From Angustibacter luteus (GTDB lineage Bacteria > Actinomycetota > Actinomycetes > Actinomycetales > Angustibacteraceae): DNA of 64,000 bases. Each line of letters opens with the position of its first letter. The first letter of the stretch is position 1. The stretch covers positions 914,447 through 978,446 of the forward strand of contig NZ_BAABFP010000005.1 in assembly GCF_039541115.1 (NCBI RefSeq). Direction: 5' to 3'. Under the pieces are notes generated by a model. The model saw nothing but the letters and a program-made list of their open reading frames with translations, searched no databases and had not been told where the DNA came from. The position numbers were made by a program, and so were the translations under genes. Below are positions 7,098 through 16,941 of this stretch, one piece after another.

Positions 7098-8888
7098 TCA
7101 GCTTCCCTCGCCCTTCCGGTCCTGGTTCGCGGCCGTACCGTCGCCCGAGCCCACGCCACCGGACGTCGTCCCGGCGCCCTCGGCGCCGATGTCCGGCTCG
7201 CCGTAGAGGTCGTCGAGGATGGTCTTGTCAGCGGTCGGCTGGTCGAGGTTGGCGATGTCGGGGTGGTGCAGGTCGAACGCGGGACGCTCGGAGCGGATCC
7301 GCGGGATGCTGGTGAAGTTGTGCCGCGGGGGCGGGCAGGAGGTGGCCCACTCCAGCGACGCGCCGTAGCCCCAGGGGTCGTCGACCTCCACCAGCGGCGC
7401 CGTACGCCAGGTCTTCCACACGTTGTAGATGAACGGGAGCGTGGAGGCGCCGAGCAGGAAGGCGCCGATCGTGGAGAACTGGTTCTCCCAGGTGAAGCCC
7501 TCGCCCGCGACGTAGTCCGCGTAGCGACGCGGCATGCCCTCGACACCGAGCCAGTGCTGGATCAGGAACGTCATCTGGAACCCGATGAACAGCATCCAGA
7601 AGTGGATCTTGCCGAGTGTCTCGTCCAGCATGCGCCCGGTGAACTTCGGCCACCAGAAGTAGAAGCCCGCGAACATGGAGAACACCACGGTGCCGAACAC
7701 GACGTAGTGGAAGTGCGCCACCACGAAGTAGCTGTCGGTGACGTGGAAGTCCAGTGCGGGACTGGACAGGATGATGCCGGTCAGGCCACCGAACAGGAAC
7801 GTCACGAGGAAGCCGATGGACCACAGCATCGGGGTCTCGAAGCTCAGCTGGCCCCGCCACATCGTGCCGACCCAGTTGAAGAACTTCACCCCGGTCGGTA
7901 CCGCGATCAGCATCGTCATGAACGCGAAGAACGGCAGGAGCACCTGGCCGGTGGCGTACATGTGGTGGGCCCACACCGTCACCGACAGCCCGGCGATGGC
8001 GATGGTCGCGAAGACCATGCCCTTGTAGCCGAACAGCGGCTTACGGCTGAACACCGGGATGATCTCGCTGATGATGCCGAAGAACGGCAGGGCGATGATG
8101 TACACCTCGGGGTGGCCGAAGAACCAGAACAGGTGCTGCCAGAGCATGGCTCCGCCGTTGCTGGCATCGAACACGTGCGCGCCGAGTCTTCGATCCGCGC
8201 CGAGGGCGAGCAGCGCGGCCGCCAGCACCGGGAACGCCATCAGCACGAGCACGGACGTGATGAGCGTCGTCCAGCTGAACAGCGACATCCGGAACATGGT
8301 CATGCCCGGGGCGCGCATGCAGATGATCGTGGTGATGAAGTTGACGGCGCCCAGGATGGTGCCGAAGCCACCCATGGCCAGGCCGAACACCCACAGGTCC
8401 GCGCCGAGGTTGGGCGAGTAGACCAGGCTCGACAGCGGCGAGTACGCCGTCCACCCGAAGCTGGCCGCGCCCTGCGGGGTGAAGAAGCCGATCGAGGCGA
8501 TCAGGCCGCCGAACAGGTAGAGCCAGTAGGCGAACATGTTCAGGCGCGGGAACGCGACGTCCGGCGCGCCGATCTGCAAGGGCATCAGGGCGTTCGCGAA
8601 CCCAGCGAACAGCGGGGTGGCGAACAGCAGCAGCATGATCGTGCCGTGCATCGTGAAGAGCTGGTTGTACTCCTCCGGCGTGCGGACGATCTGCAGGCCC
8701 GGGGAGAACAGCTCGGCGCGGATCAGCAGCGCCAGCACACCACCGATCAGGAAGAACACGAACGAGGTGATGAAGTACAGGTTCGCGATCACCTTGTGGT
8801 CGGTGCTGGTGAACCACTTGACGACGGTGCGTCCGAGCGTGGGGCGTCGGGGCTCGACCCAGTCGGCTTCGCGGTACAGCGCGGTCAT
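7098..8888 (-). CDS. ctaD: Cytochrome c oxidase subunit I
   Basis: The catalytic heme a/a3-CuB subunit. The 596 residues begin at ATG 8888, which overlaps the ctaC stop by one base (TGATG). '[15 protein letters not shown]' opens the first helix. '[13 protein letters not shown]' holds the CuB His and the cross-linked His-Tyr pair region. '[10 protein letters not shown]' gives the two other CuB histidines. '[12 protein letters not shown]' holds the heme-binding histidines near the C terminus. Length and motifs are normal for actinobacterial CtaD. Confidence 0.97.
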
Positions 8889-9766
8889 CACTGGCCCCCC
8901 ACGTTCGGAATCTTCTCGGCCTGGCCCGGCTCGAGGTTCTCCAGGCTGAGGGAGTTGGGCAGCAGGCCGGTCTGGCCCTTGGCCTTGAGCTCCGCCATGT
9001 GCTGGTCGTAGTCGGCCTGCGAGACGACCTTCACGGAGAACAGCATCTGCGAGTGGTACGTGCCGCACAGCTCGGCGCACTTGCCCGTGTACGTGCCGAT
9101 CTCGGTCGGCGTGACCTGGAAGGTGTTCACCAGCCCGGGCAGCATGTCCATCTTCATCAGGAAGGCCGGCACCCAGAACGAGTGGATGACGTCGCGCGAC
9201 GTCAGCACGAACTGAGTGGACTTGTCGACCGGCAGGTACAGCACCGGTGCGGCCGCCTGGTCAACCCCGCCAGCCGTCACCGGGGTCTGCACGCTCGCCT
9301 CGTAGACGTCGTTGGACAGGTAGTTGAAGTCCCAGGCCCAGCGCTTCCCCACGATGTTGACCACGTTGTTGGGGTTGTCGGAGACCTTGAGCAGCGTCGC
9401 CTCGTCGCGGGCCGTGTAGTAGAAGAGCGCGCCGATCATGAACAGCGGGATGACCGAGTACAGGATCTCGATCGGCAGGTTGTACCGCAGCTGCACCGGC
9501 ACGCTGTCGTCGTCCTTGCGGCGGCGGTACGCGACCACGCAGAAGATGATCAGGCCCCAGACGAGCACCCCGACGGCGAGCGCCGCGATCCACGAGCCCA
9601 CCCAGAGGTTCGTGACGACGTCCTTGTCCGTGGTCACGCCCTTGGGCAGGAACCCGCGCTTCTGCGTGTCGGTGCACCCGGTGAGGGCCACCGCGGCCAC
9701 CGCCGCAGCGACGGCGAGTCGCGACACGCGGCCGCGACTCGGACGCGATCGAGGGAGCTGTCGCAC
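8888..9766 (-). CDS. ctaC: Cytochrome c oxidase subunit II, lipoprotein
   Basis: Subunit II carries the CuA centre that receives electrons from QcrC. The 292 residues start at GTG 9766 with AAAGG upstream. A signal sequence ends in the lipobox 'LTGC' with Cys31. Two transmembrane helices (about 55-80 and 98-117) follow, then a cupredoxin domain. The CuA ligands are H195 in 'DVIHSFWVP' and '[12 protein letters not shown]' with C230, C234, H238 and M241. It is the first gene of the leftward ctaCDF run. Confidence 0.96.
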
Positions 9767-9877: not shown

Positions 9878-11038
9878 GTGCCGAACCCGCCGCAGCCAGC
9901 CCGCCGGCGCCTGCTCGACGCCGCTGCACCGCCGCTGTCGCCGGTGGCTCGCCAGACCCTGCTCGAGGCCGTCGACCTTGGCTGGGCGGACCCGCGCCGG
10001 CTCTACGCGGAGGGACGGCGGGCCCGCGCCCTGCTGGACGGTGCCCGCGAGAGCGTGGCCGGGGTGCTCGGGGTCGGCACGGACGCCGTGTCGTTCACCG
10101 GTTCCGGCACCGTCGCTCGCCAGCTCGGGCTGCGCGGGCTCCTGCGCGGCCGTCGCCGGGTCGGCGACGGGCTGGTGCTGAGCGCGGTCGAGCACTCGGC
10201 CCTGCTGCACACCGGCCAGTGGCACGCAGCCGGCGGCGGGACGACGTCCCTGGTGCCCGTGGACGGTCGGGGCCGGGTCGATCTCCTCCGGTTCACTGCC
10301 GCGGTGTCCGCCGGGGGCGTGGCGGCCGCCTGCCTGCAGGCCGCCAACGGGGAGGTCGGGACGCGGCAACCGGTGGCCGGAGCCGTCCACGCCTGCCGGA
10401 CGGCGGGTGTGCCGCTGCTGCTGGACGCGACGGGGACGCTCGGGCGCGACGACCTGCCGGGCGGCGCCGACGTCGTCGTCGCGGACGCGCGGTCCTGGGC
10501 CGGGCCGCCCGGGGTCGGGGTGCTGGCAGTCCGGACGGGCGTCCGGTGGCGCTCGGACGGGCCCGCCGACGAGCACGAGCACGGACGGGTGCCGGGGGAA
10601 CCGGACGTCCCGGCGGTGCTGGCCGCCGCGGCGGCGCTGCTGGACGCGGAGGAGCACCGGGCCCGACGCGCGAGTGTCGCGCACGCGTTGGTGGAGCGGA
10701 TCCGGGCTGCGGCCGCGGCGGTCCCGGACACGGAGGTGGTCGGCGACCCGGTGGACCGGCTCCCCCACGTGTCGACGTTCTCGTTCCTGTTCGTCGACGG
10801 CGAGGCGCTGGTGCACGAGCTCGACCGGCGCGGCTTCGCGGTGGCCAGCGGGTCCGCGTGCACCGCGAGCACCCTCGAGCCCAGCCACGTGCTGGCCGCG
10901 ATGGGGGTGCTCACCCACGGCAACCTGCGGGTCACCCTCCCGCTGGAACCGGTCGAGGCCGACGTCGACGCGTTCTGCGCGGTGCTGCCCGAGACGGTGG
11001 CCCAGGTACGGCGGGTGCTGGGCACGGAGGGGCTGTGA
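9878..11038 (+). CDS. Cysteine desulfurase-like protein lacking the PLP lysine
   Basis: A 386-residue class V aminotransferase-fold protein that aligns with IscS/NifS along its length. It keeps 'EHSALLHT', 'NGEVGTRQPV', the PLP-pyridine Asp (D183 in 'LLDATGTLG') and the mobile catalytic Cys loop 'SGSACTAS' (C328) followed by 'PSHVLAAMG'. The PLP-binding lysine, normally in an 'HKxxGPKG' context, is Ser206 in 'ARSWAGPPG'. If read correctly, it cannot form the internal aldimine. It may be a non-catalytic sulfur-transfer partner or use an unusual mechanism. It is coupled by a GTGA overlap to the TusA-like gene, so a sulfur relay is likely. The start is set by the leaderless TAGCGT box. Confidence 0.82.
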   Translation: MPNPPQPARRRLLDAAAPPLSPVARQTLLEAVDLGWADPRRLYAEGRRARALLDGARESVAGVLGVGTDAVSFTGSGTVARQLGLRGLLRGRRRVGDGLVLSAVEHSALLHTGQWHAAGGGTTSLVPVDGRGRVDLLRFTAAVSAGGVAAACLQAANGEVGTRQPVAGAVHACRTAGVPLLLDATGTLGRDDLPGGADVVVADARSWAGPPGVGVLAVRTGVRWRSDGPADEHEHGRVPGEPDVPAVLAAAAALLDAEEHRARRASVAHALVERIRAAAAAVPDTEVVGDPVDRLPHVSTFSFLFVDGEALVHELDRRGFAVASGSACTASTLEPSHVLAAMGVLTHGNLRVTLPLEPVEADVDAFCAVLPETVAQVRRVLGTEGL

Positions 11039-11316
11039 GCGACCAGCCGGTGGTGGTGGACGCTCGTGGCCTGCGCTGCCCGCTGCCGGTGGTCCGGCTC
11101 GCGCAGGCAGTGGCCGACCTGCCCGCCGGCAGCGTGGTGGTGGTGCGCGCCACCGACCCGGCGGCGCAGCACGACGTGCCCGCCTGGGCCCGGATGCGTG
11201 GGCACGAGTGGCTCGGCGCGGAACCGGACGAGCCCGACGGCCTGCGCCTCACCGTCCGGATCGGCCCATCCGGTTCGGCCGGTCCGTCGGTGGGCCGTCC
11301 TAGGGTGGTCCCGTGA
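11035..11316 (+). CDS. TusA-family sulfur carrier protein
   Basis: A 93-residue protein with 'DARGLRCPLPVVRLA', the CPxP motif of TusA/SirA carriers. Cys15 would hold the persulfide. The GTG at 11035 overlaps the stop of the desulfurase-like gene (GTGA), with GGAGG five bases upstream. Fusion or adjacency of cysteine desulfurase and TusA domains is known in actinobacteria, so the pair most likely works together. The sulfur acceptor is unknown. The last 20 or so residues are low-complexity and may be unstructured. Confidence 0.88.
   Translation: MSDQPVVVDARGLRCPLPVVRLAQAVADLPAGSVVVVRATDPAAQHDVPAWARMRGHEWLGAEPDEPDGLRLTVRIGPSGSAGPSVGRPRVVP
11301..11306 (+). promoter_or_regulatory. Leaderless -10 box of the PPOX-type flavoprotein gene
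   Basis: TAGGGT, six bases, then GTG 11313. It lies inside the end of the TusA-like gene, so the next gene can be transcribed on its own despite the GTGA overlap. Confidence 0.55.
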
Positions 11317-11978
11317 GCGCCTCCACGAACGACGAAACGCCCATCGATACCACCCCGGTCACCGAGATCAGCAGCCTCGAGCAGCTGCGCGCCCTGGTCG
11401 GCGAGCCGATGGCACGGGCCGCGGCGAAGGACCGTCCCGCCCTCGAGGACGTGCACCGCCGCTGGCTCGCCGCCGCGCCGATGTGCTTCCTGGCCACCGC
11501 AGCCGCCGACGGCACCTGCGACGTGTCTCCGAAGGGTGACCCGGCCGGCGACCTGGCGCTGGTGCTCGACGAGCGCACGCTGGCGATCGCCGAGCGGCCG
11601 GGCAACCGTCGCGTGGACGGCTACCAGAACGTGCTGAGCAACCCGCACGTCGGTCTGATCTTCGTGATCCCCGGAAGGGACGACACGCTGCGGGTCAACG
11701 GGCGAGCCCGACTGGTGTCGGACGCACCCTGGTTCGACGACATGGTGGTCAAGGGGCACCGGCCGCTGCTGGCCCTGGTCGTGGACGTCGAGCAGGTGTT
11801 CTTCCACTGCGCCAAGGCGTTCCTGCGCTCGCGGCTGTGGGACCCCTCGACGTGGCAGCCCGAGGCAATGGAGTCCCGGGCCAGGATCGCCGCGGAGGTC
11901 GAGCGGTCCGACCAGAGCCTGGCCGAGCTCGAGGAGTACTACGGCCCGTCGTACGCCGAGCGCCTCTACCGCGGCTAG
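11313..11978 (+). CDS. Pyridoxamine 5'-phosphate oxidase-type flavoprotein (MSMEG_1061-like)
   Basis: A 221-residue split-barrel FMN-binding protein. Recognisable stretches are 'MCFLATAAADGTCDVSPKGDP', 'LAIAERPGNRRVDGYQNV', 'IPGRDDTLRVNGRARLV' and 'FFHCAKAFLRS'. These match the actinobacterial PPOX subfamily with an MSMEG_1061-like C terminus. Such proteins bind FMN or F420. The reaction is unknown, and it is not the classic PdxH. It overlaps the TusA gene by four bases but has its own leaderless box. Confidence 0.82.
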   Translation: MSASTNDETPIDTTPVTEISSLEQLRALVGEPMARAAAKDRPALEDVHRRWLAAAPMCFLATAAADGTCDVSPKGDPAGDLALVLDERTLAIAERPGNRRVDGYQNVLSNPHVGLIFVIPGRDDTLRVNGRARLVSDAPWFDDMVVKGHRPLLALVVDVEQVFFHCAKAFLRSRLWDPSTWQPEAMESRARIAAEVERSDQSLAELEEYYGPSYAERLYRG

Positions 11979-14026: not shown

Positions 14027-14401
14027 TCAGCTGAAGCTGTCACCGCACGCGCAGCTGCTGCCCGCGTTCGGGTTGTCGATCGTGAAGCCCTGCTTCTCGA
14101 TGGTGTCCGCGAAGTCGATCGTGGCGCCGCCCAGGTACGGGGCGCTCATCCGGTCGACGACGACCTCGACCCCGCCGAACGCCTCGACCAGGTCACCGTC
14201 GAGGTCACGCTCGTCGAAGTACAGCTGGTAGATCAGGCCCGAGCAGCCACCGGGCTGCACGCCGATCCGCAGCCGCAGGTCCTCGCGGCCCTCCTGCTCG
14301 AGCAGGCTCTTGACCTTCTGCGCAGCCACGTCCGTCAGGACCACACCGTGGGCGGGTGCCTCGGTCGCGGTCTGGTCGGTGGACTGGGTGGTCTCGGTCA
14401 T
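14027..14401 (-). CDS. erpA: Iron-sulfur cluster insertion protein (HesB/IscA/ErpA type)
   Basis: An A-type Fe-S carrier of 124 residues. It has 'LRLRIGVQPGGCSGLIYQL' with the first conserved Cys and the C-terminal 'SSCACGDSF' pair (CxC). 'MSAPYLGGATIDFAD' is typical of the family. The first 20 or so residues are a Thr-rich tail. ATG 14401 is the only sensible start. It may share a sulfur economy with the TusA/desulfurase-like pair 3 kb away, but that is inference. Confidence 0.92.
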   Translation of the reverse strand: MTETTQSTDQTATEAPAHGVVLTDVAAQKVKSLLEQEGREDLRLRIGVQPGGCSGLIYQLYFDERDLDGDLVEAFGGVEVVVDRMSAPYLGGATIDFADTIEKQGFTIDNPNAGSSCACGDSFS

Positions 14402-14518
14402 TCGCGCATCCCTACTCGTCGACTCGTCGATCTGGCGGCCACCAGCGGCAACCACCAGTGCGCTCGGCATGTTCCCGGTGCTCGGGAGAACTTCGCGCTC
14501 GCCGTCCAGCGTACGTCG

Positions 14519-15670
14519 TCACCGCGACCAGGTGCGCGCGACCCGACGGGCGCGGCGGGCCAGGGCGCCGGCGGGGTCGCGTTGCACGTCCGCCAGCCAG
14601 CCCTGCCGGTCTGCCACCGCGTAGGCGCCGGACACCCCCAGGTTGAGGGTCTCGCGGCGCCCGACCTCGACCTCGACGGCGAGCACGACGACCGGCAGCC
14701 CGACGGCCAGCGCCGACTCCGCCACCGAGGCGACGACCCCACCGCGCATCGAGTGCCAGCCGAACACCGACTCGCCGGTGACCACCAGGTCCGCCCCGCT
14801 CAGCCGCTGCGCGAATCCGGTGGCCGCGAGCACCTCCTGGACGCCGTCGACGCGGGTGGCGCCGAGCAGCAGCAGCGCGAAGCCGATCCCGCCACCCGCG
14901 CCCGCGCCCGCCACGCCCGCCATCCCGCTGCCGCCCAGTGAGCGCCCGGCGACCTGGGAGCGCTGCGCCACGTGGGCAAAGTGGCCCAGCGCGGCCTCGA
15001 GCTGCTGGGCCTGCTCCGGGGTCGCACCGCGCCGCTCCGCGTCCGTGGCGCTCGCGCCGTGGAAGCCCAGCAACGGCAGGTCGGACGACGTCGCCGCCAC
15101 GAGCTGGACGCCGCGCAGCCGCTGGCGCACGGCGTCGAGCCCGCTGAGCGCATCGGCCGTCAGGTCGGCCAGCGCACCGCCGCCCCCGCCGAGCAGCTCG
15201 GCCGGACCGGCCCCCAGTGCCGCCAGGATGCCCGCGCCCCCGTCGTGCGACGCCGAGTCGCCGATGCCGATGACGACGCGGGTGGCCCCCGTCTGCACGG
15301 CGGCCTGGACGAGCTCGCCGACCCCGGTGCTGGTGGCCCGCCAGGCGTCGCGCCGCTCGGGCGCGAGCAGGTGCAGCCCGCAGGCCTGGCTCGCCTCGAG
15401 GTAGGCGGTCCGGCTGCCGTCGGTCTCGGTGACGACCAGCACCGCGGCCGGGACAGGCTCGCCGAGGGGCCCGCTGACCGTGACGGGCACGAGCTCGCCG
15501 CCACGGGCGGACAGCACGACGTCGACGAGGCCGGGTCCGCCGTCCGAGAGCGGGGTGGTGGTGAGCTGGTCGGATGGCGCCTGCTCGGCCCAGCCGGCCG
15601 CGATGGCGTCAGCGGCCTGCTGGGCGTCGAGGTGGCCGGCGAAGGTGTCAGGGGCGATCAGGACGCGCAC
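14519..15670 (-). CDS. Glycerate kinase
   Basis: Phosphorylates D-glycerate with ATP (GarK/GlxK family). The 383 residues start 'RVLIAPDTFAGHLDA', a slightly altered form of the usual SFKGSL N terminus. They contain 'PLSDGGPGLVD', 'VVIGIGDSASHDGGAGI' and 'DLVVTGESVFGWHSM', all family motifs. The central and C-terminal parts are Gly/Ala rich. GTG 15670 has GGGAGGA about eight bases upstream. It is divergent from nadA with 74 bases between them. Confidence 0.9.
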   Translation of the reverse strand: MRVLIAPDTFAGHLDAQQAADAIAAGWAEQAPSDQLTTTPLSDGGPGLVDVVLSARGGELVPVTVSGPLGEPVPAAVLVVTETDGSRTAYLEASQACGLHLLAPERRDAWRATSTGVGELVQAAVQTGATRVVIGIGDSASHDGGAGILAALGAGPAELLGGGGGALADLTADALSGLDAVRQRLRGVQLVAATSSDLPLLGFHGASATDAERRGATPEQAQQLEAALGHFAHVAQRSQVAGRSLGGSGMAGVAGAGAGGGIGFALLLLGATRVDGVQEVLAATGFAQRLSGADLVVTGESVFGWHSMRGGVVASVAESALAVGLPVVVLAVEVEVGRRETLNLGVSGAYAVADRQGWLADVQRDPAGALARRARRVARTWSR

Positions 15671-15744
15671 GTCGGCATCCTCCCAGGTCAGGGTCGTCGG
15701 TCCGGACGGATGTCGGTCCGGGGCCCTGTGCGACGATCGTGGAC

Positions 15745-16941
15745 GTGAGCACCTTCGCCGAACCGGCTGCCACTCCTGCCGCACTGCTGCTGCTCGGTCG
15801 CGGCCGTGACCTGGCCAGCGAGCGCGGCGTGGAGTGCCCCGGCGACCTGCCCGCGCCGTCCGACCCCGGACTGGTGGAGCGAGCACGGGCGGCGAAGGCG
15901 GCGCTCGGCGACCAGGTCTTCGTACTCGGGCACCACTACCAGCGCGACGAGGTCATCGAGTTCGCCGACGTCACGGGCGACTCGTTCAAGCTCGCGCAGC
16001 AAGCGGCGGCTCGGCCGGACTCGCCGTACATCGTGTTCTGCGGCGTGCACTTCATGGCCGAGAGCGCCGACGTGCTGACCGCCGAGCACCAGCAGGTCGT
16101 GCTGCCGGACCTCGCGGCCGGCTGCTCGATGGCGGACATGGCCGCGATCAGCCAGGTCGAGGACGCGTGGGACGACCTGGTGGACGCCGGCGTGGCCGAC
16201 GACGTCGTGCCGGTGTCGTACATGAACTCGACGGCGGCCATCAAGGCGTTCACCGGGCGGCACGGCGGGACGATCTGCACGTCCTCCAACGCCCGGACGG
16301 CACTGGACTGGGCGTTCGCGCAGCGCCCGGCCGGCCGCGGCAAGGTGCTGTTCCTGCCCGACCAGCACCTGGGTCGCAACACCGCGGTGCTCGAGCTGGG
16401 CCTCTCCCTCGGCGACTGCGTGCTGTTCGACCCGCACAAGCCGATGGGCGGCCTGACCCGCGAGCAGCTGCAGAACGCCCGGATGATCCTGTGGCGCGGG
16501 CACTGCTCGGTGCACGGGCGGTTCAGCCTGGACTCGGTCAACGACGTGCGCGAGCGGGTGCCCGGCGTCCAGGTGCTGGTGCACCCGGAGTGCCGGCACG
16601 AGGTCGTCTCGGCGGCCGACCACGTGGGCTCGACGGAGAAGATCATCCAGACCCTCGCCGCCGCGCCCGCCGGGTCGTCGTGGGCGATCGGCACCGAGCT
16701 GAACCTGGTGCGCCGGCTGGCCCGGGAGAACCCGCAGCTCGACGTGACGTTCCTGGACCGCACGGTCTGCTTCTGCTCGACCATGAACCGCATCGACCTG
16801 CCGCACCTGGTGTGGTCGCTCGAGTCGCTCGCCGCCGGCCGGGTGGTGAACCGGATCGTCGTCGACCCGGACGTCGCGCACTGGGCGCGGGTGGCGCTGG
16901 ACCAGATGCTGGCGCTGCCTGGGATCACCGCGAAGGACTGA
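15745..16941 (+). CDS. nadA: Quinolinate synthase
   Basis: NadA condenses iminoaspartate and dihydroxyacetone phosphate to quinolinate with a [4Fe-4S] cluster. The 398 residues contain 'VLGHHYQRDEVIEFAD', 'FCGVHFMAESADVL' (first cluster Cys), 'PVSYMNSTAAIKAF', 'VLFLPDQHLGRNTA', 'VLVHPECRHEVV' (second Cys) and 'DRTVCFCSTMN' (third). GTG 15745 is chosen because a weak GACGAT box lies seven bases upstream. A GTG at 15739 is also in frame. nadB and nadC are not next to it, although they often are in actinobacteria. Confidence 0.95.
   Translation: MSTFAEPAATPAALLLLGRGRDLASERGVECPGDLPAPSDPGLVERARAAKAALGDQVFVLGHHYQRDEVIEFADVTGDSFKLAQQAAARPDSPYIVFCGVHFMAESADVLTAEHQQVVLPDLAAGCSMADMAAISQVEDAWDDLVDAGVADDVVPVSYMNSTAAIKAFTGRHGGTICTSSNARTALDWAFAQRPAGRGKVLFLPDQHLGRNTAVLELGLSLGDCVLFDPHKPMGGLTREQLQNARMILWRGHCSVHGRFSLDSVNDVRERVPGVQVLVHPECRHEVVSAADHVGSTEKIIQTLAAAPAGSSWAIGTELNLVRRLARENPQLDVTFLDRTVCFCSTMNRIDLPHLVWSLESLAAGRVVNRIVVDPDVAHWARVALDQMLALPGITAKD

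Follow-up and report, generated by a model that had tools for sequence, protein, structure and literature searches.

The locus examined here raises the question of what a cysteine desulfurase homolog may still do for a cell once the lysine that binds its PLP cofactor has been replaced. To our knowledge, PLP enzymes seldom persist once this lysine is lost. A single fixed locus that holds Lys-bearing and Lys-less orthologs in many families makes the step from enzyme to nonenzyme open to direct comparison, and it could reveal which part of a desulfurase stays worthwhile without the chemistry and whether Cys328 relays sulfur without PLP. Further, an automatic "cysteine desulfurase" annotation would mislead for a large Lys-less group.

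In the window (the whole stretch of 64,000 nucleotides of Angustibacter luteus DNA that was analysed), the gene encoding this homolog, protein P0001, occupies positions 9878 to 11038 of the forward strand and is an intact open reading frame of 386 amino acids with a GTG start and a stop codon at 11036 to 11038. The gene for a TusA-like sulfurtransferase of 93 amino acids (P0002; 11035 to 11316, forward strand) begins with a GTG at 11035 that overlaps this stop codon as GTGA, with GGAGGGG just before it. Together with the match of P0002 to PF01206 (72.6 bits; cut-off, 28.6), this overlap bears out the coupling to TusA that the first-pass annotation had proposed. P0002 carries a CPLP motif whose putative acceptor cysteine, Cys15, is encoded by the TGC at 11077 to 11079 on the forward strand; against the TusA equivalog NF001423 it scored 46 bits, below the cut-off of 78. 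A PNPOx_N (PF01243) gene at 11313 to 11978 on the forward strand, for which none of the other compared loci, the same-genus locus included, yielded a homolog, has a GTG that overlaps the tusA stop codon, again as GTGA, giving an apparent three-gene operon.

P0001 is a type-I protein that can be aligned with IscS/NifS from end to end and scores closest to NifS. It passed the cut-off for class-V aminotransferases (PF00266; 95 bits versus 21.5), and it scored below the curated cut-offs of the NifS model TIGR03402 (200 bits versus 530.75) and of the IscS NCBIfam equivalog (108 bits versus 643). Its AlphaFold model, built from 8 sequences only and with a mean pLDDT of 71.5, matches IscS structures from Mycobacterium tuberculosis, human, Archaeoglobus fulgidus, and Escherichia coli (Foldseek E value of 2e-28; VIA-align Z of about 36). 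Residues 326 to 347, the Cys-loop region, were modeled with low confidence, as expected of a mobile loop; in crystals of IscS, the tip of this loop is likewise disordered (PMC2854127).

At the position of the Schiff-base lysine (Lys206 of IscS), the alignment with IscS/NifS places Ser206 of P0001 (codon TCC, 10493 to 10495, forward strand), just as the first-pass annotation had read it. The surrounding motif, D203-A-R-S-W-A-G-P-P-G-V (10484 to 10516, forward strand), stands in for the S-x-H-K-x-x-G-P-x-G-x of active desulfurases; the corresponding stretch of L003, a Lys-bearing IscS encoded in the same genome, reads T-G-H-K-L-G-G-P. A sequencing or frameshift error was rejected, as DARS recurs in another genome of the genus (76% identity) and the lysine is missing in some 60 further genomes of the order. 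Another lysine reaching the PLP site, which the earlier annotation had asked to be considered, is likewise excluded: P0001 and P0002 contain no lysine in their whole sequences, and an internal PLP aldimine is impossible in P0001 because there is no lysine anywhere in the protein. Among 80 Lys-less homolog entries (a few loci are duplicated), 49 are lysine-free across the whole domain, and no lysine column reaches 8 of the 80.

The loss of the lysine is accompanied by other changes. Relative to E. coli IscS, Gln183 is replaced by Gly186, Asn155 by Gly158, Ser203 by Asp203, and His205 by Arg205, so that the earlier view of one residue selectively lost among otherwise conserved ones does not hold, and the PLP pocket is broadly relaxed instead. 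We take Thr76, Ser203, and His205 of IscS to be contacts of the PLP phosphate. Thr76, His104, Asp180, Glu156, Cys328, and Arg354 of IscS are kept in P0001 as Thr78, His106, Asp183, Glu159, Cys328, and Arg351, which agrees with the earlier reading that the catalytic cysteine (within GSACTASTLEPS) and Asp183 (within LLLDA) are retained. The Cys loop, S324-G-S-A-C328-T-A-S-T-L-E-P-S336 (10847 to 10885, forward strand), has the length of that in E. coli IscS, and Arg351 (10928 to 10930, forward strand) corresponds to the Arg354 that binds the substrate carboxylate in the active enzyme (PMC9978102).

In E. coli IscS, the K206A, H104Q, Q183E, and D180G variants are inactive, and changes of Gln183 abolish activity (PMC9978102). 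Hence, by inference from the sequence, desulfurase chemistry has almost certainly been lost in P0001. Retained PLP chemistry, with the cofactor held as an external aldimine or noncovalently and another base serving the proton transfers, seems very improbable. K206A IscS does still hold some PLP, and P0001 keeps the equivalents of Thr76, His104, and Asp180; however, K206A IscS is inactive (PMC9978102), Gln183, Ser203, and His205 are all changed in P0001 along with the absence of any lysine, and the His104 position is Arg in most Lys-less relatives.

Orthologs of P0001 were found across the class Actinomycetes at 40 to 76% identity. The lysine is present in 65 of them, as S-A-H-K-W-G-G-P or a close variant, and absent in every one of the 60 full-length orthologs examined from the order of the window, where D, S, T, A, or G takes its place; these Lys-less orthologs span at least seven families, Kineosporiaceae and Cellulomonadaceae among them. 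Thirteen further Lys-less orthologs belong to other families (L131, L133, L143, L144, L149 to L152, L155 to L157, L159, and L160). The gene order ctaD-ctaC, desulfurase homolog, tusA, pfkB, erpA, glycerate kinase, nadA is common to Lys-bearing and Lys-less loci. In the window, the conserved neighbors include ctaD, for cytochrome c oxidase subunit I (7098 to 9080, reverse strand; PF00115), a gene for an erpA-like A-type Fe-S carrier (14027 to 14470, reverse strand; PF01521), and nadA, for the Fe-S enzyme quinolinate synthase (15574 to 16941, forward strand; PF02445). Because this gene order is conserved, the Lys-less and Lys-bearing genes are orthologs, and paralogy was ruled out. Lys-bearing orthologs at the same locus, such as that of Nocardioides litoris (L015), share with P0001 50 to 60% identity, the gene order, the TusA partner, and the Cys loop, and differ in keeping S-A-H-K-W-G-G-P.

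In a family tree of 141 extracted sequences, from which the pocket columns were excluded, the Lys-less members of the order form one branch (support, 99/93), and the loss of the lysine in this order is ancient. Mapped on the best tree, the Lys-less state requires six changes, at least three of which are forced by supported branches, and a single change was found in 0% of the bootstrap trees, which makes it less likely that all Lys-less forms arose only once. Repeated loss in other families of Actinomycetes is therefore favored by the tree and yet not proven, as an approximately unbiased (AU) test with all Lys-less sequences constrained to one clade gave a p value of 0.085 and does not reject a single origin. 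In some Lys-bearing orthologs (L158, L052, L124, L038, and L126), His205 is already gone and the motif reads SAAK, SSAK, or SARK; these may possibly represent intermediates toward lysine loss.

Is the Lys-less protein, then, a relic? Pairwise dN/dS is 0.09 to 0.25 for Lys-less pairs, similar to the 0.13 to 0.28 among the first 25 Lys-bearing pairs listed; for the window's own pair, it is 0.26 (0.177/0.678). No in-frame stop codons were found in the ortholog matches of the order. Comparison of 74 Lys-less with 65 Lys-bearing orthologs identified 16 columns that are invariant in the Lys-less set (D14, W36, N157, E159, Q164, R276, G289, G319, S324, G325, S326, C328, S336, V338, L339, and R351), and 8 of the 16 fall within the 30-residue Cys-loop segment 322 to 351 (hypergeometric p = 6e-6, a descriptive value, as the sequences are related). 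Cys328 is invariant in both sets, and Arg351 does not vary in the family. The columns of Thr76, His104, Ser203, His205, and Lys206, in contrast, are fixed in the 65 Lys-bearing orthologs and drift in the Lys-less ones, where K206 is changed to D, S, A, T, or G, 40 of the 74 have R at the H104 position, and 55 of the 74 have D at the S203 position. Position 158 is His or Gln in Lys-bearing orthologs and Gly in most Lys-less ones. Within the order of the window, conservation extends to D198 and to a new motif, D203-P/A. The conserved columns outside the pocket include R47, R57, and D38-P39.

These patterns support purifying selection on the Lys-less group, with the Cys328 loop and the substrate arginine retained. 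The low dN/dS, the absence of stop codons, the kept synteny, and the invariance of the Cys loop agree with the earlier claim of a retained role as opposed to simple decay. Slow decay, in which catalysis was lost first and the rest of the gene is a fading relic, is already hard to hold, and we consider it improbable. It might account for the finding that, of the 297 genomes sampled from the order, no more than 72 yielded an ortholog at an E value of 1e-48 or less, for a degenerate second copy in one genome (L111, described below), and for the neighboring TusA having been lost in about seven changes within the Lys-less rows versus two within the Lys-bearing rows, a difference that is not significant in paired tests. 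Against it stand the selection estimates and intact reading frames, the enrichment of invariant columns in the Cys loop, and the retention of the locus in at least seven families.

TusA is adjacent or fused to the desulfurase homolog at 62 of the 65 Lys-bearing loci, 47 of the 61 Lys-less loci of the order, and 7 of the 13 other Lys-less loci. All 116 of these adjacent or fused TusAs, including 47 of 47 beside Lys-less homologs of the order, retain the CPxP cysteine, and P0002 is the only PF01206 match in the window's genome. A second TusA cysteine (A-W-C) is present in 62 of 62 TusAs with Lys-bearing partners and gone in 35 of the 47 with Lys-less partners of the order; the sulfur chemistry may therefore have changed. 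In those 35, the window's P0002 among them, Ala, Thr, or Gly occupies the position. At loci without an adjacent TusA, a TusA domain is encoded elsewhere in some of the genomes; in four Lys-less genomes (G341, G542, G065, and G220) no PF01206 protein was detected, and Cys328 is still kept. Because Cys328 is kept where TusA is absent, transfer to TusA is not the whole reason for its retention, and the role that the first-pass annotation had suggested, tied to the coupled TusA, is too narrow for the several Lys-less lineages that have lost the neighboring TusA. The counts hint at a link between lysine loss and loss of the adjacent TusA, and between TusA absence and changes at L333 or H347; independent-pair tests of these links were not significant (best median p of about 0.125).

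Based on the observed absence of the lysine, relaxation of the pocket, invariance of the Cys loop and arginine, purifying selection, synteny, and coupling to TusA, we tentatively favor the hypothesis that P0001 is a conserved pseudo-desulfurase, a PLP-free protein that handles or relays persulfide, or docks partners, and is loaded by another sulfur source. Such a protein would keep the IscS/NifS fold, very likely as a dimer, and would form no PLP aldimine and have no desulfurase activity, while its mobile Cys328 loop would still carry or exchange sulfane sulfur. Cys328 might receive its sulfur in trans from a Lys-bearing desulfurase of the same cell, such as SufS or IscS, or from a small persulfide accommodated in the old substrate pocket with its retained Arg351. 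The lysine is kept in four further class-V proteins of the genome, namely SufS (next to SufU), IscS (next to MnmA), L002, and L004, and any of them could act as sulfur donor to P0001. The sulfur would then pass from Cys328 to Cys15 of the cotranslated TusA, as it passes in E. coli from IscS Cys328 to TusA Cys19, the two being about 4 Å apart (PMC2854127); in lineages without TusA, Cys328 would serve another acceptor. P0001 resembles E. coli IscS and its complex with TusA (3LVJ) in the fold, the length of the Cys328 loop, the GSAC and LEPS residues, and the CPxP-bearing TusA partner, and differs from it at Lys206, Gln183, Ser203, His205, and Asn155. Of the IscS residues needed for TusA binding, Trp45, Glu49, and Asp52 (PMC2854127), the last is matched by Asp54 of P0001, and the first two are replaced by Arg and Ala.

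Extended to a full account, loading by a small persulfide would make P0001 a PLP-free persulfide transferase, in which the Arg351 pocket binds a carboxylate-bearing persulfide (e.g., cysteine hydropersulfide) and Cys328 takes the sulfane sulfur without a cofactor and passes it to TusA or other acceptors, the change having arisen independently in several lineages of Actinomycetes. We regard this version as unlikely.

A purely structural or regulatory part, in which P0001 binds TusA or forms mixed dimers that tune an active desulfurase and Cys328 serves loop structure or redox sensing, is quite unlikely in our judgment. Pseudoenzymes often act as such partners, and both the kept fold and the conserved R47, R57, and D38-P39 outside the pocket are compatible with this role. 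However, Cys328 and Arg351 are strictly invariant in 74 sequences whose surroundings have diverged, which argues for chemistry or ligand binding.

The group is not the first Lys-less IscS, because the IscS of A. fulgidus and IscS1 of Methanosarcina acetivorans precede it. A. fulgidus IscS has Asp in place of the PLP lysine, has no desulfurase activity, and uses its cysteine to ligate a [2Fe-2S] cluster on IscU; the PLP lysine is likewise missing from M. acetivorans IscS1 (PMC7585200). The A. fulgidus protein (PDB 4eb5 and 4hvk; mutant 4r5f) resembles P0001 in its type-I fold, kept Cys loop, and replaced lysine, and has Ala at the Gln183 position, where P0001 has Gly; a lysine has been put back into the archaeal protein as D199K. 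A comparable function in the window's group, in which Cys328 would ligate a cluster during its assembly on ErpA, on SufU, or in the NadA pathway without delivering sulfur, would account for the retention of Cys328 without TusA. It is in line with A. fulgidus IscS providing the nearest PDB entries to P0001 by sequence (2e-40) and with the presence of erpA and nadA at the same locus across Actinomycetes. Yet no IscU or SufU gene was found at the locus, the genome's only NifU_N protein adjoining SufS, from where it might still form a complex in trans; the coupled partner is TusA and not a scaffold; and the substrate arginine, which is Leu in A. fulgidus IscS, is invariant in the Lys-less group. 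Hence, we consider a cluster-ligand role rather unlikely, and pseudo-desulfurase persulfide handling remains our preferred reading. The archaeal proteins are IscU-paired cluster ligands of anaerobes, whereas the group described here is bacterial and TusA-paired. This group departs from the A. fulgidus precedent in the host group, the TusA partner, the invariant Arg351, the wider pocket change with its new D203-rich motif, and the number of lineages. No description of the actinobacterial Lys-less group was found among the open-access papers searched, where a search for pseudo-desulfurases returned only an unrelated survey.

Single-chain fusions of the desulfurase homolog with TusA occur among both Lys-bearing and Lys-less proteins (L041, L042, L043, L047, L049, and L050, of family f25, as well as L011 and L159); L011 is a Lys-less protein fused to TusA. 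One small genome (G430) carries two Lys-less copies, L110 and L111. The Cys loop of L111 reads GCGCTCGRHPSGPC, and its TusA is without the CPxP motif (GLGNPTT), possibly reflecting joint decay of both partners.
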